This document shows positions 13,050 through 22,721 of a stretch of DNA of 64,000 nt, in pieces. The DNA comes from Aporhodopirellula aestuarii (GTDB lineage: Bacteria; Planctomycetota; Planctomycetia; Pirellulales; Pirellulaceae), in NCBI RefSeq assembly GCF_023701485.1, contig NZ_JAMQBK010000031.1, forward strand, positions 62,001 through 126,000, written 5' to 3'. Under the pieces are notes generated by a model. It made no database searches. It was given only the letters and a program-made list of their open reading frames with translations, and was not told the origin of the DNA. Within the stretch, counting starts at the first letter, position 1. Every line of letters starts with the position of its first letter. The translations under genes were made by a program, and so were the position numbers.

Positions 13050-13921
13050 CGTTTCAAAAAATCAGCGGTCACGTTGGCGACATATTCGGCGTCACCCGGA
13101 TGGTTGACGAGCAGATGGTCGGCGCCGCTGAGCGTGATCAAACTGCAACCGGGTAATCCGTCTTCGTCTTCGACGAGGCTCGCGATTCGCAGCGCGTGAT
13201 CATAGCCGAGGGTTTGGTCCACCGGCGAATGGAACGCCAACACTCTGCTGCGGATCCGATTCAGGTGATCGGCGAGTTGGTGGGACCGAAAGTCCTCCAC
13301 CATTTTCCGAGGTATCGTCCAGGTGCGGCCACCGATGACGACATCGCCTCGTCCGCTGTGTTCAATTTCTGGGTTCATGCGGGTGAGCAACTCCGCAAGA
13401 TGCTGGGTGTCGCTCGGCGCCGCGATGCTCACGATGGCGGCGATTTTTTCGCGAACGGAATCTGCAATCGGTTTGTGTACATGCCCTGGCATTCCCGCCG
13501 CTATCGCCAGCGAGGCCGCTCCGCCAAAGCTGTGTCCGATCAGCCCGGTTACGGTACCGATTGATTCCGTTGCGAACGTGATCGCCGCCGACAAGTCGGC
13601 GAGGTTGGTCGAGAAATTGGTGTCGGCAAAGTCGCCTTCGCTTCCTCCGAGGCCCGTCATGTCATATCTCAGAACCGCGATGCCGGCTTCTGCCAAGCTT
13701 CTTGAAATCCGCGTGATCGCTTTGAGGTCTTTATTGCAGGTGAAACAATGACTGAAGACCACCACGGGGACCGCGGTGGATTCCAAGCTCGGCTTATCAG
13801 AGACAGGACGCACGGGCCGATCGATAATGCCGGCCAGTGCAAACCCGCATCCGCCTTCAAAGCGAACCCGATACGATCGGCGTTCGAAACGATCTGCCTG
13901 TGACATGGCAGCTTCGCTCAC
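13034..13921 (-). CDS. Alpha/beta hydrolase (OsmC-partner-type)
   Basis: A 295-residue cytosolic alpha/beta hydrolase. It shows the oxyanion region [11 protein letters not shown], the nucleophile elbow [10 protein letters not shown], Asp in FHSPVDQTL and catalytic His in SGADHLLV. The [10 protein letters not shown] sequence with its two Cys is characteristic of hydrolases that in many bacteria are fused or adjacent to OsmC peroxidases; no OsmC gene is visible here. The gene follows floA with a four-base overlap (stop of floA at 13918-13920 inside the start region), so it is translated from the floA message. Substrate is unknown. Confidence 0.75.
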
Positions 13922-15021
13922 GTCGATTGATCCATGGGGAGATTGGAATCTGTCGAGCCGATGCGTCCGGCTTGAAACGCTTCGGCCATCGCTTTGGGAA
14001 CTTCCGCTTCGGCAAGAACGAGTCGCGATCGGTTTTCCGAAACGCGGGCCTTCATTTGTTGTTCCTCGGCGATCGCCTCGGCACGTCGACGTTCGGCTTG
14101 AGCTCTCGCGACACGCGTGTCCGCTTCCGCTTGATCACTCTGCAACCGGGCGCCGATGTTCTCACCGACGTCGATGTCGGCGATGTCAATCGATACGATC
14201 TCGAACGCGGTTTGTGCGTCGAGGGCGCGTGACAGCACGACGCGGGTGATCATGTCTGGATTTTCGAGGACGTCGAAGTGCGATTCGGCTGACCCGATCG
14301 AGCTGATGATTGCTTCACCCACCCGGGCGATGATGGTGTCTTCGGTCGCTCCACCGATCAGTTGTTCGATGTTGGTTCTCACCGTTACACGAGCCCGTAC
14401 CCGCAGTTCGATACCGTTTTTTGTGATGGCGCTGAGGGTTGTTTTGCCACTGCGTTTTGGGTCGGGGCAATCAATGACTTTGGGATACACACTCGTTTGG
14501 ACGGCATCGAGCACGTCGCGGCCAGCCAAGTCGATCGCGGCGGCTTGATCGAAGTCCAACGGAATGCGAGCACGGTGGGCAGCGATGATCGCATGGATCA
14601 CGTTCATGACGTTGCCGCCGGCGAGGTAGTGTGCCTCCAGGCGATGGGTGCTGATCCCGTCACCGCGGCTGATGTTCAGTTTCGCTTGTGCTGCCATCAC
14701 TTTGGCCTGCACGATCACGTTCGGATTGACCTTGGTGAAGTGCATGCGGATCAGATTGGCGAGCTTCACGTCGGCTTCCGACATGAACGCCTGGAACCAT
14801 AGTTTCCCGTACTGGATCAGGAAGAAACCGAGGATCGCCGCAAACGACAACGCGATCAGGATGCCGACAATAATCGCAACGCTATAAAGGCTGAACGGTG
14901 TTTCAGCCTCCGCGAGGAGGCTGGCGGCGAAGGTCGAATGCAAGGTGGCGGCGTGACCAAGGATTGGTTCGAGTGCAGCTAACATGAGAATCGGTCTGCC
15001 GGAATGGGATTCGTAAAGCAA
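13918..15021 (-). CDS. floA: Flotillin-like protein FloA
   Basis: A 367-residue FloA (former UPF0365) protein. A membrane-inserted hairpin or helix ([20 protein letters not shown], about residues 48-67) is followed by the SPFH/PHB-like region ([20 protein letters not shown]) and a coiled coil rich in Ala, Glu and Arg ([20 protein letters not shown]). In Bacillus FloA organises functional membrane microdomains together with FloT. About 30 residues precede the membrane part, more than usual, so initiation at Met13 (14985) is possible. The downstream alpha/beta hydrolase overlaps by four bases; the usual NfeD partner is absent. Confidence 0.9.
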
Positions 15022-15301: not shown

Positions 15302-17095
15302 CTATTTGCCCCAGCCCGCGACGTCGATCAACATGTCGGTGAGCGAACTCACCGGGGCCGCCGGTTCGGTGTAGCTCCACATGTTGCGGACCAAATCGGT
15401 CATCAACATTCCGCCCAAACTCATCACCATCAAGATCAACATCAAGCCAACGGTTTGCAACAGCGTGAAGGGGATTTCGTATCCCGCGACGCCACCCACC
15501 GCGGCTGCGGCCGGTCGTTCGTACGCACTGTCATCCGGGGTAAACGGCTCTTCGGCATGTTCGACGCCTTCGTCGATCCCTTCGACACCCCCAAAAACGT
15601 CGCCGCCTTCCTCTCCGAAGACCTCGGCGTCTTGGACCACCGCTTCTTCGACGAATGCCGGCTCGTCAAAGCCGCCACTGCCGAAGGAGTCTGAGTTCTC
15701 GACATCGATCTCTTGTGATTCGCTCTCGTCGGACGCTTCGAGCTGGATCCCGGAAGGTGAGAGTTGGAATTCTTCATCTGAGGGGAAGTCCAGGTTCGCG
15801 CCGCTGCCGTCCTCGGGAATCAGCCCCGATCCGTAACCGCTGCTGCCCGACCCTGAGCCACTGCCACTGCCCTCAACCAGTTCCGCACCCAGATCGAGTG
15901 CCGAGATACTGCTGCCGGCGAGATCCAATGGCTCGCTCTCAAGCGACAAACCACTGTCCGACGGGCTCATGAGATTGATACCGCTGTCACCAGCGATAGA
16001 AATATCGCTCCCCGCACTGCTGACGATCAGATCGTCGTCGTCGTCGGAGATGACCAAATCGTCGTCGTCCGCCAAGGCGTCATCAACGCCCGAAGATCCA
16101 CCTTCGTCGGCGCCGAGCAGTGAGCTGCCCAAGAGGTTTTCGCTATCACCGCTGAGTAAGCCGCTGCCGACCGAATCGCCGGCGAGCAAATCGAGTTCGC
16201 TGAGCACGTCACCACTGACTTTGCCGACCCCACCGACACCGCTGGCGCTGTCTTGAAGATCGAGGTCCTCCATCATTTCGAGGCTGCTCGCTTTTTCATC
16301 ATTGCCGACCATGCCAAAGTCGATATCCGAATCGCTGCCGAGCAACACGTCGCCCGAATCCGGAGCTGCAACATCTACACCGCTAATGTCGTCAGAGCCT
16401 GGCCCCGCGCCCTTGCCGACTGAAGAAGACGAGCCGCCCTCAATTTCGAGGGCCGGTGAATCATCATCGCCTTCGAGATCCAGAACACTGCCGAGATTGA
16501 ACTCGTCACTGTCTTGCGCCGAACCGGCGGTGGGAGCAGGTTTCTTGCCAGCTGCGGCGGCTTCTTTGGCGGCCAAGTTGAGTTCGCCGCTATCGTGCGA
16601 AATGGCCGAACCGGCGAGATCGAGTTCGTCCAAATCGATCGGCAAGCTGCTGCCACTGCCGCTGCCGCTACCGATCGACGAACCGCCCTCGCCACCTGGA
16701 ATGATTAAGACATCGCTGCCACCTGAACCGTCGCCGGCGATCAAGTTGACGTCGCTATCGCTGCCCGAACTCGAACCTTCCATTCCGAGTTCGATGCTGC
16801 TGCCTCCGCTGCCATCGGCGTCGAGGTTGATTTCATCGAGTTCGATGCCGCTGCCGTCGCCGCCGATCACCTTACCGACTTTTGAGCCAGGGCCGTCGGC
16901 ACCGAGAACCCCTGATCCGAACCCAGATAAATTGGGCAGTTCTTCACGCAGGCGGGCAATTTCCGATTCCGGAAATTTCCAACTCGAACCGTCGCGGAAT
17001 CCGCGAACTTGGCCCTGAGAACGCAAATCGATCAGAGACTGCGTGGGAATGCCGAGCTGTTTTGCGGCTTCTTCGAGCGAGAGATAAGTGGCCAT
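15302..17095 (-). CDS. HTH protein with long Gly/Ser/Asp-rich region and C-terminal membrane segment
   Basis: A 597-residue protein. Residues 1-50 (MATYLSLEEAAKQLGIP through GSSWKFPESEIARLREEL) are an excisionase/MerR-like winged helix. Residues 55-520 are low complexity: Gly, Ser, Asp, Glu and Leu with loosely repeated blocks such as GSGIELDEINLDADGSG, ELDLAGSAIS and ISDDDDDLIVSS. Residues about 540-575 form a hydrophobic helix (LLQTVGLMLILMVMSLGGML). The DNA-binding head and the membrane tail are thus separated by a flexible acidic linker. Planctomycetes carry related proteins of unknown role. A 9-bp inverted repeat lies just upstream. Transcriptional regulation from the membrane or chromosome tethering are both possible. 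Confidence 0.75.
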   Translation of the reverse strand: MATYLSLEEAAKQLGIPTQSLIDLRSQGQVRGFRDGSSWKFPESEIARLREELPNLSGFGSGVLGADGPGSKVGKVIGGDGSGIELDEINLDADGSGGSSIELGMEGSSSGSDSDVNLIAGDGSGGSDVLIIPGGEGGSSIGSGSGSGSSLPIDLDELDLAGSAISHDSGELNLAAKEAAAAGKKPAPTAGSAQDSDEFNLGSVLDLEGDDDSPALEIEGGSSSSVGKGAGPGSDDISGVDVAAPDSGDVLLGSDSDIDFGMVGNDEKASSLEMMEDLDLQDSASGVGGVGKVSGDVLSELDLLAGDSVGSGLLSGDSENLLGSSLLGADEGGSSGVDDALADDDDLVISDDDDDLIVSSAGSDISIAGDSGINLMSPSDSGLSLESEPLDLAGSSISALDLGAELVEGSGSGSGSGSSGYGSGLIPEDGSGANLDFPSDEEFQLSPSGIQLEASDESESQEIDVENSDSFGSGGFDEPAFVEEAVVQDAEVFGEEGGDVFGGVEGIDEGVEHAEEPFTPDDSAYERPAAAAVGGVAGYEIPFTLLQTVGLMLILMVMSLGGMLMTDLVRNMWSYTEPAAPVSSLTDMLIDVAGWGK

Positions 17096-17215: not shown

Positions 17216-17686
17216 TTAATTCGATCGAGGCGGGAGTCCTTGCATCCGACGGATTTGATCGGCCAGTGGCGGGGTGACGTTCAGTTCTAGGGTGAAGTCG
17301 GCGGCAATTTCGCGGCTGCTGACCAGCCGGATTTTGCCTTCAGAACCAACATGATACACCGCCATCCATCGTTTTTCCGCATCTACGATCGTAATTACTT
17401 GAGTTCCCGAGTCGTCAACGTGGGAAAATCCGATCAAATCCCCCGAACCGGCAACATCACGCCCGTCGCGAGACTCGATCACCGTCACTTGGCTCCCAGC
17501 CACCTCCCCGAATTCGGGAGCGACTGCCCCCAATTGTTGGGGCACCGAGGAATATCCAGGAGTTTGTGCCGTGACCGATGGGGAACTCCCCGAGGCCCAG
17601 ATCGCGCCGATCAGGATTCCGAGGGCCAAAGGCAGCAGGCTCGGCGCAATTCGTTTGAACCGCGAAGGAAAGAGGGAAGGATTCAT
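17216..17686 (-). CDS. Small exported hypothetical protein
   Basis: A 156-residue protein with an N-terminal basic region and a hydrophobic stretch (LLPLALGILIGAIWASG, residues 17-33), followed by a Ser/Thr/Gln-rich segment. This is a signal peptide or single anchor. The remaining 120 residues look like a beta-rich domain (QVITIVDAEKRWMAVYHVGS; IRLVSSREIAADFTLELNV) that I do not recognise. It is divergent from the stator-like operon with a 270-base spacer and upstream of the HTH gene on the same strand. Related small proteins with 'VITVVDPKTRVLAVYH'-like cores are, as far as I recall, common in planctomycetes, without known function. Confidence 0.65.
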   Translation of the reverse strand: MNPSLFPSRFKRIAPSLLPLALGILIGAIWASGSSPSVTAQTPGYSSVPQQLGAVAPEFGEVAGSQVTVIESRDGRDVAGSGDLIGFSHVDDSGTQVITIVDAEKRWMAVYHVGSEGKIRLVSSREIAADFTLELNVTPPLADQIRRMQGLPPRSN

Positions 17687-17956: not shown

Positions 17957-19486
17957 ATGACTCAACCTCCCGAACCCGTTTCAGTAAGCCATCAAATGTT
18001 CATGCAGGATTCGCCGGCTCGGAAATCACCAGCGATGGCGTTGGTCACCAAGCTCACGCCCCTGGCAATCGGGCTGGCTGGCGGCTGTGCGTTTTATGCA
18101 GTCGTGCTGGCCGTCGATTGGGCACCTCTGAACCGATATTTTCTCGGTCACCCCGTCGCCGTCGCCGCGACGATGTTGTTCGCCGTGGCCGTTTCGATTC
18201 TCGCGTTCATGACGCTCGACACCGCGTCGCAGCAACGTTCGATGCGTCTGCTCCGCGACGCCGATTTAATGCCGCCGCCGGCTCAGGAAGACAAACCGCT
18301 GTCGCCGGCGCAGCGTTGGCGAGACGAAAACGATGCCGGGCACGCGGCTCGAATGTGGCGAGTGGGACTGAGCAAATTACCCGCCGCGACTCGTAGCAGC
18401 GCCCTCGTGCGACGTCTCGATGAAGTCCTCACGCGGCAATCGCATCGCACAACGACGGGTGAATTGCCGGAAGATCTGAGAGAGTTGTCGGTTCGCGACG
18501 CGGATGCCGCACACGATTCGCTCGGATTGATTCGGATCATCGTGTGGGCGATCCCAATGCTCGGGTTCCTCGGTACCGTGATCGGGATTACGCAAACTCT
18601 TGGCGGGCTCGACTTCACCGACGGGACCGCCGCGGTGGACCGGCTCAAAAGCGGTTTGTATGTGGCGTTCGACACCACCGCGTTGGGACTCGTGCTTTCC
18701 GTTGTTGCCATCTTCTTGCAGTTCCCGGTCGAACGAGGGTTGCAGAGCTTGCTGGTCGATATCGACGAACGGGTGCGAGATTTGGTGTCGTTGGGATTGC
18801 CCAGCGAAAATCCGGCAGATAACCAAACGGCCATGATCACGCATCTGTGCCGAGGGATTGAAACCGCGGTCGCTGAATCGTTGGCCACCCAGGCGAAATT
18901 GTGGCGGGAAACGATTGAGGAAGCCCAAGAAGCTTGGCGCAGCCAGCACAACGAGGGCGCCGAGCAGTTCCGTCAATTGCTGCAGTCCGCGATGAAGCCG
19001 GCCCTGACACATCACGCCGACCGCATCGACGCCTCGATCGGCCGACTCGATGGGGCCGCCCATTCGGTCGAAAATGCATTGCGGGAACAGACCGCGGTGT
19101 GGCGTGGTGCGTTGCAAGAAACCGCATCGGAAGTGCAAACGCATCGCCGAACTCTGTTGACGCACACCGAGGCGATGACGACGCTCGCGACACGCCAAAG
19201 CGAACAAGATGCCTCGCTTCGAGACGCGTTGAAACGCGTCGTTTCCGATCGCAATTCAAAGAGCGAACCCAAGTCCGCTCCGGCACTCGATCCCGCGGTA
19301 ACCCAAGCCATGACGACGCTCGCACGGGCCGTCGATCTGCTTTCGACCCGTTTGCCGCTGCCGCCAGAACGGCCCACGCGAACCTCCGCAGGTCCTGGCC
19401 GCGGTGCCAGAGCGGCCGGCAACTCGAATGCCGGTACGAGAGCCAATGGTGCCGCCGATCGTGACTCCCTAGGACGTGCGGCATGA
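17957..19486 (+). CDS. MotA/TolQ/ExbB-family proton channel with long coiled-coil tail
   Basis: A 509-residue membrane protein. Two helices (about residues 25-50 and 58-85) are followed by a cytoplasmic stretch and two helices carrying the MotA/TolQ/ExbB core (IVWAIPMLGFLGTVIGITQT, residues 195-214; AFDTTALGLVLSVVAIFLQF, residues 236-255). Residues 290-440 are a cytoplasmic helical, coiled-coil-like tail. In this family five such subunits surround two MotB/TolR-type subunits and use proton flow to drive rotation or force. The next two genes overlap head to tail in ATGA and encode single-pass proteins in the MotB/TolR position. The extended tail resembles ZorA more than ExbB, but no nuclease or helicase follows. 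Confidence 0.85.
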   Translation: MTQPPEPVSVSHQMFMQDSPARKSPAMALVTKLTPLAIGLAGGCAFYAVVLAVDWAPLNRYFLGHPVAVAATMLFAVAVSILAFMTLDTASQQRSMRLLRDADLMPPPAQEDKPLSPAQRWRDENDAGHAARMWRVGLSKLPAATRSSALVRRLDEVLTRQSHRTTTGELPEDLRELSVRDADAAHDSLGLIRIIVWAIPMLGFLGTVIGITQTLGGLDFTDGTAAVDRLKSGLYVAFDTTALGLVLSVVAIFLQFPVERGLQSLLVDIDERVRDLVSLGLPSENPADNQTAMITHLCRGIETAVAESLATQAKLWRETIEEAQEAWRSQHNEGAEQFRQLLQSAMKPALTHHADRIDASIGRLDGAAHSVENALREQTAVWRGALQETASEVQTHRRTLLTHTEAMTTLATRQSEQDASLRDALKRVVSDRNSKSEPKSAPALDPAVTQAMTTLARAVDLLSTRLPLPPERPTRTSAGPGRGARAAGNSNAGTRANGAADRDSLGRAA

Positions 19487-21651
19487 GTCGGCGCCGCGCC
19501 GGAATTTCACCGTCGCTTTTCCCGTTCCTGGCGGTGTTGATTTGCACGCTCGGGACGCTGATTTTGCTGCTGGCGTTGGTCGCTCAACAAGCCAACGACG
19601 CTGCTGTTGCGCAGGTCGAGCAGGAACGTCGGGAGAAACTCGCGTCGGCGGCTGACAAAGTCAATGCGCCGGTGGCCTCGGCGACGCTCACGTCTCCGGT
19701 CGCTGACGAGGATGACGCTCCGCCCGCGATGACAGCATCGGCGGCGCAGCGGTTGATCGCGCAGGAACAATTCCGCGTCAGTCAGCTCGTCTCGTTTCGT
19801 AATGAGCAGACCGCGGAACTCGAGCGAAAACGTGACGAGATCACGCAAATCGAGTCGCATATGCGAAAGATCAAGGCACGCCTCGCCGATCTCAACGCCG
19901 AAGTCGAAATGGCCATGACGGAGGGTGAAAATCCGGTTGAGGTCGCTCAGACGGACGAAACAACGCTCGTGTTGATGCGCGAGGAAGCCGCCAAATTGCG
20001 TGCCGAGATAGATGAACTTGAGTCGAGTGAACGCGGCAGCAAGCCGCGTGTCGTGATTGTTCCACACCGCGGACCGAACGGTACCCAACGACGACCGATC
20101 TATGTTCTCTGCACCGCCGATGGTTTGGAAATCCTCCCCGAAGGTGCACGCATCACCAAGGCCCAGGCCCTCGCGGCAACTGAATCCGATAATCCACGCA
20201 GCAATCCGCTCGGGGCCGCACTCCGCACCGCACGGATGCACGCCATGCAGCAGTACGGCGACCAACTCCCGCCGTATCCCTTGCTAGTCGTTCGCCCCGA
20301 TGGCATCTACATGTACCGCGTCGCGAGCGCTTTGATGAAAGATTGGGACGACCAGTACGGCTACGAACTCGTGCCGAGCGAAGTGGACTTGGCTTTCCCA
20401 GGCGGCGACAACGTGCTGCGAAGGAACATGGAGCTCGCCATCCACGAGGCCGCCGCACGCAACTTCCACTACGCCTCCGGAAGAGGTGGTGGCGGTCATG
20501 GCAACGGAAGTGGCTATGGGTCTTCGTCCGTTCCAGACGCTTATCGGGGATCGCCTGACCAGCAACCGGGATCGTACGCCGCGGGATCGTACGCGGCTGG
20601 CCAAGACGGACCAGGACAAACAAGCTCCGGACAACCTTCCGGGGGCCAGCCTCCGAATCCGGGGTTTGCCTCCACGGGACAAGCCCCAAGGGGTGCGGGA
20701 ACGTCACGAACGCCGGCGCGGGCGCTGCCGACGTTGTCAGCCCGCGATCTGGATCGGCAGGCGCAATCCAACGGTTTTTCGCTCGCTCGCGACCAGCAAT
20801 TTAGCGCCATGGGCAATGTCTTTGCCGAGCCACCCGGTTCGCATGGAGGATCCTACGGCGCCGCCGGTTCGGTCAAATCGCAATCCGCAGCTCTCAACGA
20901 TTTCCTAGCAGGCAAAACGCCTCCCGGCCTCGAAGATTCCGCGCAGTCGGACAACCCAGGCGGTGAATCAGGCGGGACGGGAAGCTCAGGAACGGATTCG
21001 CCGGGCAGTGGTACGCCGGACAGTGGTACGCCGGGCCAATCCGATCTTGCAGGGACCGGATCTTCGGCCGGGACGTCGTCGCAACCGCCACCTCCTGGTG
21101 CACAACCGGGACAGATGAGCTCGTCCGCAATGTCACAGTCTGCAATGTCGCAAAGCCCGAGCCAGATGAGCGGGGTCGCCATGGCGCTCAGCAATCCAGG
21201 CCAACCTGGTTCGCCAGAGTCGTCTGCCAATGGATCGTCGTCGGAGTCGGGACAAAGCTCGTCACAGTCGCCACAATCACCGCAGGTCGCGCAAAAGATG
21301 GTCCGCCGCGAAGGTAAGGATTGGGCGTTACCGGAAGCGTTTCGCGGAATGGGAGGCACCGAATTTGTGCGTCCGATTTCGATGCGGTGTCACCACGACC
21401 GTTTTGAGTTGATCGAACAGGGACAGGTCGTCCAAACCTTCACCTTTGACCAGCAAGACGTTTATGGCCCGACTCTGCAACTCGCTACGGCGATCCGTGA
21501 CCGCGTGATGGGATGGGGGGCGACGATGCAGGGTGGCTACTGGAGACCGCGTCTGGAGGTCAGTGTGGGCCCACACGCCGAACAACGCTTTCATGAATTG
21601 CAAACGCTCATGCAAGGTAGCGGCGTCGATGTGGTTAGGAGATCACCATGA
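19483..21651 (+). CDS. Stator-operon single-pass membrane protein with low-complexity region
   Basis: A 722-residue protein. One membrane helix lies at residues 10-30 (LFPFLAVLICTLGTLILLLA), in the place of a MotB/TolR helix, but it has no Asp that could carry a proton. A coiled coil follows (residues 85-185), then a domain with IYVLCTADGLEILPEGARI and LLVVRPDGIYMYRVASALM (residues 205-325). A Gly/Ser/Pro/Gln-rich stretch covers residues 330-600, and a second domain (RPISMRCHHDRFELIEQG and onward) ends the protein. No OmpA-like peptidoglycan-binding domain is seen. The start ATG overlaps the stop of the channel gene and its stop overlaps the next start. Probably one of two partner subunits of the channel. 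Confidence 0.8.
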   Translation: MSRRRAGISPSLFPFLAVLICTLGTLILLLALVAQQANDAAVAQVEQERREKLASAADKVNAPVASATLTSPVADEDDAPPAMTASAAQRLIAQEQFRVSQLVSFRNEQTAELERKRDEITQIESHMRKIKARLADLNAEVEMAMTEGENPVEVAQTDETTLVLMREEAAKLRAEIDELESSERGSKPRVVIVPHRGPNGTQRRPIYVLCTADGLEILPEGARITKAQALAATESDNPRSNPLGAALRTARMHAMQQYGDQLPPYPLLVVRPDGIYMYRVASALMKDWDDQYGYELVPSEVDLAFPGGDNVLRRNMELAIHEAAARNFHYASGRGGGGHGNGSGYGSSSVPDAYRGSPDQQPGSYAAGSYAAGQDGPGQTSSGQPSGGQPPNPGFASTGQAPRGAGTSRTPARALPTLSARDLDRQAQSNGFSLARDQQFSAMGNVFAEPPGSHGGSYGAAGSVKSQSAALNDFLAGKTPPGLEDSAQSDNPGGESGGTGSSGTDSPGSGTPDSGTPGQSDLAGTGSSAGTSSQPPPPGAQPGQMSSSAMSQSAMSQSPSQMSGVAMALSNPGQPGSPESSANGSSSESGQSSSQSPQSPQVAQKMVRREGKDWALPEAFRGMGGTEFVRPISMRCHHDRFELIEQGQVVQTFTFDQQDVYGPTLQLATAIRDRVMGWGATMQGGYWRPRLEVSVGPHAEQRFHELQTLMQGSGVDVVRRSP

Positions 21652-22721
21652 GCGGAAGACGCCGCAGCACACTTGAGCTCGGTCACGATGCCTTCTTGGA
21701 TATCGTGGCTAACCTCGTCGGTATTCTGATCATCCTCGTGGTCGTTCTGGGGACGCAAACTCAACGGATCACAGAGCTGATGCGTGAAAACGTCGAATCG
21801 GAAATGCAACTCGCCGAAGACGACCTACCACAGGTCGATGCGACTCCAGATCAACCGGTCGAAGCCGTCGCGTCACGGGCTCAACTCGATCAACTCGGTG
21901 AGATGGCCATGCGGGCCGCCTCGGCCCAACGGGACTCGATGCGGATCGAAGCGAACCTGCGCCGCTACAACCAGCAAATTGAACAACTCTCCGAAGCTCG
22001 CGGAAGATTGCTCGACCTGATGAGTATCGCCGAAGCAGCGTGGGAAGAGAAAAAGTCTGAACTCGATCAATCCAAGGTCCTCGCGGCCAAGTATCAACGT
22101 GAAATTCGCGAGGTGGAATCTGAAATAGCAACCCTCGCGGGGACCAAAGAGCGGTTGGCCAATGAGGAGGCTCCGCTCGTTGCCGTCGAGCACCTGCCGA
22201 CGCCGATGGCGAAGACTGTTTTCGGTGACGAAATCGATTTCCGCTTGAAGGGCGGACGATTGTCGCTCGTTCCCGTGGAACCGTTGATGAAGGAAATCAA
22301 AGAGGACGCGCAGCGCATGACGCCCAAACCCGGCAAGGACGCTTCGACCGTCGGCCCGATTCGGGACTACATTGCCAACTATGTCGTCGAGCGAGAAATC
22401 GGTCGCATCACACAGAACGGCAAGACCGCCATGGCGATGGCCACGCGGCTTGGTGCGGTCGCGTTTGAGCCGCTCGACGAATCCGTCGGCCAACCCGTGG
22501 GACAAGTATTGCGAGACCGCAGTTTCTTAGACATCGAACTCGCCGGCCGCGACCCGCACTCCACCACGATCACGGTCTGGGTTTACCCGGATAGTTTTGG
22601 TGAATTGCGTCAGCTCAAAGAGCACCTCTATCAGCGAGGTTTTGCAACCGCGGCTCGCCCACTGCTGAACGGTCAAGCGATCATCTTCAGCAGCAGCGGC
22701 ACGCGTTCGAAGGCGCAGTAG
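21648..22721 (+). CDS. Stator-operon single-pass protein with proton-carrying Asp
   Basis: A 357-residue protein with one N-terminal helix, HDAFLDIVANLVGILIILVV (residues 14-33). The Asp at residue 19 lies at the position of the essential proton-binding Asp in MotB, TolR and ExbD. A coiled coil follows (residues 85-160). The C-terminal 170 residues hold a small domain related in style to that of the preceding gene (DEIDFRLKGGRLSLVPVEPL; FLDIELAGRDPHSTTITVW). The gene is the third of an operon in which all junctions overlap by four bases. The natural reading is a stator subunit that couples proton flow to an extracytoplasmic or envelope partner. The target is unknown. Confidence 0.8.
   Translation: MSGRRRSTLELGHDAFLDIVANLVGILIILVVVLGTQTQRITELMRENVESEMQLAEDDLPQVDATPDQPVEAVASRAQLDQLGEMAMRAASAQRDSMRIEANLRRYNQQIEQLSEARGRLLDLMSIAEAAWEEKKSELDQSKVLAAKYQREIREVESEIATLAGTKERLANEEAPLVAVEHLPTPMAKTVFGDEIDFRLKGGRLSLVPVEPLMKEIKEDAQRMTPKPGKDASTVGPIRDYIANYVVEREIGRITQNGKTAMAMATRLGAVAFEPLDESVGQPVGQVLRDRSFLDIELAGRDPHSTTITVWVYPDSFGELRQLKEHLYQRGFATAARPLLNGQAIIFSSSGTRSKAQ

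Follow-up and report, generated by a model that had tools for sequence, protein, structure and literature searches.

Organization of the locus

The analysed window, a stretch of 64,000 nucleotides from Aporhodopirellula aestuarii, contains three consecutive open reading frames on the forward strand, encoding a channel protein followed by two single-pass membrane proteins, here called partner 1 and partner 2 (Table 1). The frames overlap by ATGA at both joints, which bears out the claim of an earlier note, made from the letters of the window, that the genes form an operon coupled in this manner. The genome carries three operons of this kind: that of the window (type A) and two others, designated type B and type C.

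Two divergent genes precede the operon, one encoding a protein of 156 residues and the other an HTH_17 protein with a long Gly/Ser/Asp-rich region. Relatives of each lie upstream of the operon at 29 loci, the upstream sequence reaching at least 2 kb at 58 loci, and both proteins may be tied to the motor proposed below. Other planctomycete families have different neighbours beside the operon. Further upstream on the reverse strand (13918-15021) lies a FloA flotillin-like gene (PF12127, 3e-126), linked to the operon in only the two nearest relatives.

Table 1. Coordinates of the operon, its predicted features and its divergent neighbours in the window
Feature	Position	Strand	Description
Divergent HTH_17 gene	15302..17095	-	597 aa; C-terminal hydrophobic segment
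Divergent 156-aa gene	17216..17686	-	156 aa; N-terminal hydrophobic segment
Channel gene	17957..19486	+	509 aa; MotA/TolQ/ExbB family; PF01618 match
Channel pore helices TM3-TM4	18515..18730	+	Residues 187-258; P200, G203, G206, T207, D239, T240, T241
Partner 1 gene	19483..21651	+	722 aa; single-pass; proton site without Asp
Partner 1 transpore-type helix	19516..19590	+	Residues 12-36, LFPFLAVLxCTxG; Ala17 codon 19531-19533 replaces Asp
Partner 1 predicted coiled coil	19735..20034	+	Residues 85-184; heptad signal 85-147, p = 0.03
Partner 1 first periplasmic alpha/beta domain	20059..20382	+	Residues 193-300; from profile and predicted model
Partner 1 Gly/Ser/Pro/Gln-rich arm	20488..21282	+	Residues 336-600; mostly disordered, mostly pLDDT < 50
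Partner 1 second alpha/beta domain	21313..21639	+	Residues 611-719; weak fold resemblance to TolR
Partner 2 gene	21648..22721	+	357 aa; single-pass; proton-site Asp present
Partner 2 transpore-type helix	21684..21755	+	Residues 13-36, DxFLDxxxNxVGILIIL; Asp18 codon 21699-21701; Asp14 codon 21687-21689
Partner 2 predicted coiled coil	21876..22163	+	Residues 77-172; heptad period, 0/500 shuffles as strong
Partner 2 periplasmic alpha/beta domain	22191..22709	+	Three-strand insertion; contains WVYPDSF motif

The channel subunit

The channel matches PF01618 well above the cut-off (51 bits against 22.9, E 1.6e-13), confirming its earlier assignment to the MotA/TolQ/ExbB family. It has four hydrophobic segments, numbered TM1 to TM4 from the sequence, and a long C-terminal cytoplasmic tail. 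Conservation is concentrated in the two pore helices, with 55% of the positions of TM3 and 50% of those of TM4 at least 90% conserved, against 14% in both TM1 and TM2. Residues P200, G203, G206, T207, G210 and T241 recur in types A, B and C and in the classical TolQ/ExbB paralogues aligned from the genome of the window; T240 nearly does. Threonines of this kind ring the Asp of the transpore helix (PMC12204202). All 37 type A rows have Asp at position 239; type B has Asp or Asn there and type C mostly Glu, and the residue is not acidic in the aligned classical paralogues. The channel also matches ZorA profiles weakly (PADLOC, 3.9e-10; NCBIfam, 23.6 bits against a cut-off of 700).

The two partner subunits

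Both partners have basic N-termini and a single membrane-spanning helix, and neither has a Pfam match above the cut-off. Searched up to E 1, neither window partner matches OmpA, ExbD (PF02472) or vWA families in Pfam, and these three are also absent from the 25 families matched by most orthologues; the earlier statement that neither shows an OmpA peptidoglycan-binding domain is thus supported. Profile searches of solved structures with the partners returned coiled coils only, and comparison of both predicted models with solved structures by Foldseek and VIA-align gave no Foldseek hit at E <= 0.001 and only middling Z scores.

The N-terminal helices of the two proteins are alike. Compared over the first 60 residues of each, they align with a profile probability of 93% and a single gap near the N-terminus, which places Ala17 of partner 1 opposite Asp18 of partner 2. 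The proposal that only the second partner has an Asp at the proton-carrying site therefore holds, except that the residue is 18 and not 19. Partner 2 has a further Asp, Asp14, one turn before Asp18 and invariant in a 51-member orthologue alignment. By eye, FPFLA of partner 1 shares a Pro at -3 from the Asp position with TPMID of ExbD proteins from the same genome. At least 90% conservation is reached by 52% of the 25 positions of the partner 1 helix, the highest share in that protein, and by 62% of the positions of the partner 2 helix. The conservation of the partner 1 helix is only slightly one-sided at all helical angles examined, and this evenness fits, without proving, a helix surrounded by protein. 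The SHLS motif is absent from the partner 1 helix, and there is no His in LFPFLAVLICTLGTLILLLALVAQ.

Outside the membrane, the predicted model of partner 2 (mean pLDDT 83.5) consists of a helix at residues 13-56, a second at 77-172 and an alpha/beta domain at 194-348. That of partner 1 (mean pLDDT 68.9) has a helix at residues 13-57, coils up to residue 184 and two alpha/beta domains at 205-296 and 626-719; the long Gly/Ser/Pro region already remarked on in the earlier note corresponds to the low-confidence arm between these domains. The coils of both partners show a heptad signal, that is, a 3.5-residue period, and the predictions make a parallel heterodimeric coiled coil of partners 1 and 2 plausible. 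Profile comparison finds the two alpha/beta domains of partner 1 similar to each other (81%), and neither of them similar to the periplasmic domain of partner 2 (0.4% and 3%). The modelled second domain bears a weak resemblance to TolR (5by4; Z 6.5, rmsd 4.1, 81 aligned residues; Foldseek E 0.12), which would be the only functionally plausible fold relative seen, in a comparison in which unrelated ribosomal proteins score equally.

Conservation of the operon and of the Ala/Asp asymmetry

A scan of 84,980 species genomes with partner 2 gave at least 369 confirmed relatives, the best 80 of which, on 80 planctomycete contigs, were analysed further; among these, the nearest named organism is Rhodopirellula rubra (89% identity in partner 2). 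The channel and partner 1 genes lie directly upstream of partner 2, in the same order, at every locus where the contig extends far enough. The ATGA overlap is found at 70 of 71 orthologous loci between channel and partner 1, and at 47 of 66 between partner 1 and partner 2. The critical residues were read with a motif that put no constraint on the site in partner 1 and accepted any of several residues in partner 2. In the orthologues from the 80 contigs, every readable motif shows the difference: Ala in partner 1 (73/73) and Asp in partner 2 (73/73). Eleven sequences fall outside the motif: six partner 2 proteins read CFLD and retain the Asp, four partner 1 sequences at the ends of contigs are fragments or spurious matches, and the last is partner 1 of the locus L132 discussed below. 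Because both the overlaps and the Ala/Asp difference recur across orthologues, neither the operon nor its asymmetry is due to chance. At one locus (L089:6882-8982) the partner 1 frame is broken, with about 343 residues and a gap before partner 2, reflecting a frameshift or an assembly fault.

With L132 partner 1 as the query, a match was found in 191 of 199 Pirellulaceae genomes and in 65 of 68 genera; among genomes with a completeness of 90% or more and a contamination of 5% or less, partner 1 is present in 142 of 144. Partner 1 is a core gene of the Pirellulaceae. The operon is thus conserved across planctomycetes, a point that the earlier note had named as a check, and we regard the three-gene unit as a real, conserved operon whose product looks like a motor built with two unlike partners.

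Sister operons and more distant relatives

A partner 2 profile built from the three operon types matched 50 of 244 planctomycete genomes at E 1e-6. At the 44 loci examined, partner 2 has the Asp in 43, and one (L208) went unread. Partner 1 is more varied at the same loci: the motif scan gave Ala in 10, Thr in one, Ser in 13 and Asp in 15, with five unread. The Asp-containing partner 1 proteins comprise 14 loci read by the scan, together with L132, a type A locus, and L200, one of the five that the scan left unread, where SFIDA was read by eye. In the genome of the window, type B (contig C99, near 400 kb) combines a zinc-ribbon-like channel with a partner 1 of about 270 residues that reads LFPFLS and lacks both the arm and the second domain. 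Type C (C99, near 80 kb; L061:5451-8182) has Asp in both partners and is preceded by genes for proteins of 312 and 1000 residues. That sister operons have an Asp at the very position of Ala17 identifies partner 1 as a member of the pore-subunit family. Homologues in which both partners keep the Asp, which the earlier note had set against its own proposal if combined with an OmpA domain, thus exist, and they speak for partner 1 as a homologue of pore subunits; the OmpA domain was found in none of those scanned.

In a tree of the channel proteins, type A, type B and the Asp/Asp type C form groups with support of 99, 98 and 100, respectively, and the Asp state takes three changes. An outgroup row (L068, branch length 9.9) is a wrong or unrelated protein and was ignored. 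The root is weak, and neither it nor the pairing of types B and C as sisters (support 83) is relied on here, so that the three changes are given without a direction. The single type A exception so far is L132:1976-6578, from an uncultured Pirellula, whose partner 1 reads FTFLDV and whose channel lacks Thr207, Thr240 and Thr241. As this locus falls inside type A, its Asp was most likely regained; the locus is represented by a single sequence of metagenome origin, which may be a degenerate copy. A search for further type A partner 1 proteins with Asp found only Ala in the close relatives readable on the given strand.

Relatives with comparable layouts occur further afield. The distant planctomycete operon L200:4163-8552 encodes similar partners (SFIDA and SFLDA) with weak vWA matches (E 3.5e-05 and 0.0084), and probably belongs to the published TPH-vWA class. 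A tblastn search with the channel found the same three-gene layout on plasmids of Anabaena cylindrica and Microcystis aeruginosa (L250:4929-7505, L251:3926-6523), where partner 1 has 153 residues and reads LFPFLS, partner 2 has 231-236 residues and reads DSFLD, and the operons adjoin type III-B CRISPR genes or a helicase. Searching plasmids by tblastn with partner 2 of type B, type C or L200 gave no match. A Sagittula plasmid (L252:4479-5334) encodes an ExbD with Asp (PLADAMF) followed by a second ExbD-like protein that by eye has Asn at that position; the two may be a convergent unequal pair.

A proposed motor with an unequal axle and its alternatives

The assembly that these observations somewhat favour is an ion-driven motor of 5:1:1 composition with an unequal axle, in which partner 2 would carry the protons and partner 1 the arm. 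Five channel copies would form a ring traversed by one copy of each partner; at the proton site, Asp18 of partner 2 would provide the sole transpore carboxylate, and partner 1, with its Ala, would be the non-carrying half of the axle. Both partners would continue outside the membrane as coiled coils, probably joined in a heterodimeric stalk, and the disordered arm and second domain of partner 1 would carry force to the cell wall or the outer envelope. The operon, its conservation, the Asp/Ala asymmetry, the homology of the helices and the conserved pore residues are observed and the folds and coils are predicted, whereas the 5:1:1 ratio, the flow of protons, the rotation and the transfer of force to its target are what we infer here. 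The heterodimeric machine suggested in the earlier note thus keeps its two unlike pore-type partners, and a heterodimer sharing one pore would be the best reading of them.

The premise that classical stators use two equal partners proved too simple, given the AglR/AglQ/AglS and ExbD1/ExbD2 systems and the predicted vWA pairs (PMC12204202). MotA5MotB2, TolQ5R2 and ExbB5D2 resemble the window system in channel family, pore residues and an N-terminal transpore helix with an Asp near its cytoplasmic end, but they have two equal axle subunits and OmpA-type or ExbD/TolR-type periplasmic domains. Partner 2 has the N-terminal single helix with a conserved Asp that is typical of 5:2 motors (Asp18, 73/73); Asp on both transpore subunits is not found, as partner 1 has Ala, and would be present if partner 2 homodimerised. 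The AglR/AglQ/AglS gliding motor of Myxococcus xanthus likewise combines one channel with two MotB/TolR-like partners. However, AglQ and AglS are both described with an Asp and with TolR-like peptidoglycan-binding domains (PMC9389320), in which they differ from the window partners. Their pairing has been left open (PMC9389320), and a hand-over-hand use of the two has been speculated on (PMC9120999). A 2025 study predicts heterologous vWA pore-partner pairs with an Asp in each (PMC12204202). These TPH-vWA pairs share with the window the combination of one channel and two heterologous partners with predicted transpore helices in a gene cluster, but the window partners have no vWA match, and only one of them carries the Asp that the published pairs have in each monomer. 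A heterologous axle has therefore been put forward before; a pair in which one subunit has consistently lost the Asp and the domains are not vWA was not found described in the literature consulted.

In the 5:2 model, the axle chains are identical, so that a tenth of a turn brings the motor to an equivalent state, and one ion passes per 36 degrees (PMC9389320). Such models predict ten equivalent steps and ten ions per turn, and a count of five is said to call for a wholly different model (PMC9389320). A single carrier would change the period to 72 degrees and the count to five ions per turn. An obligate heterodimeric axle that works in this way, one subunit having lost its Asp for good and acting as the mechanical arm, is a tentative reading to which we give slightly less than an even chance; such a rotary motor would spend five ions per turn instead of ten and advance by 72 degrees instead of 36. 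An unequal axle is favoured by the invariant Ala/Asp readings, the helix alignment, the shared Thr207, Thr240 and Thr241, the coils and the 142/144 genomes. Against it counts L132, with an Asp in partner 1 and a channel devoid of these threonines: either the asymmetry is not absolute or this copy is degenerate.

Partner 2 might instead form a homodimer within the ring, with partner 1 acting as a transducer like TonB or TolA, its helix at the outer edge of the ring and its arm across the periplasm. The layout of partner 1 (a helix, a long disordered arm and a C-terminal alpha/beta domain) is that of such proteins, and its Ala rules out the usual proton carrying. Its helix, however, is of the transpore type: it lacks an SxHxLxS-type motif (PMC12204202) and any His, is homologous to that of partner 2, is conserved all round and has an Asp in sister families. 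The short type B partner 1, without arm and second domain, also argues against a transducer, which we consider rather unlikely. Less probable again is a single channel served by interchangeable homodimers, those of partner 2 conducting and those of partner 1 plugging or regulating the pore. Both helices are of a type that could fit the ring, and the choice between homo- and heterodimers is likewise open for AglQ/AglS (PMC9389320), but strict pairing in coupled operons fits an obligate pair better.

An anti-phage device like Zorya is very improbable. The channel of Zorya ZorA5B2 (PMC11890865) also has a long cytoplasmic tail, the weak ZorA matches point the same way and the plasmid relatives lie beside CRISPR genes or a helicase. 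Yet the ZorA score falls far below the NCBIfam cut-off, and Zorya has a single type of ZorB whose peptidoglycan-binding domain has no OmpA-type counterpart detected in the window partners, as well as defence effectors, none of which was seen among six neighbouring proteins scanned with Pfam. Moreover, the operon is nearly universal in Pirellulaceae, whereas defence genes are patchy. Equally slim are the prospects of a plain ExbB-ExbD-ExbD energiser of nutrient uptake in which one ExbD has degenerated. There are known operons with two ExbD genes, but classical channel/ExbD operons with Asp occur separately in the same genome, the window partners have no ExbD match in Pfam up to E 1, and the partner 1 position is strictly Ala and does not drift.

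Implications

The operon is likely to encode a core envelope machine of the Pirellulaceae that carries no name in the family libraries searched. A conserved one-Asp motor beside two-Asp sisters would provide a natural test of whether such machines need one carrier or two, and of the role of the second subunit.
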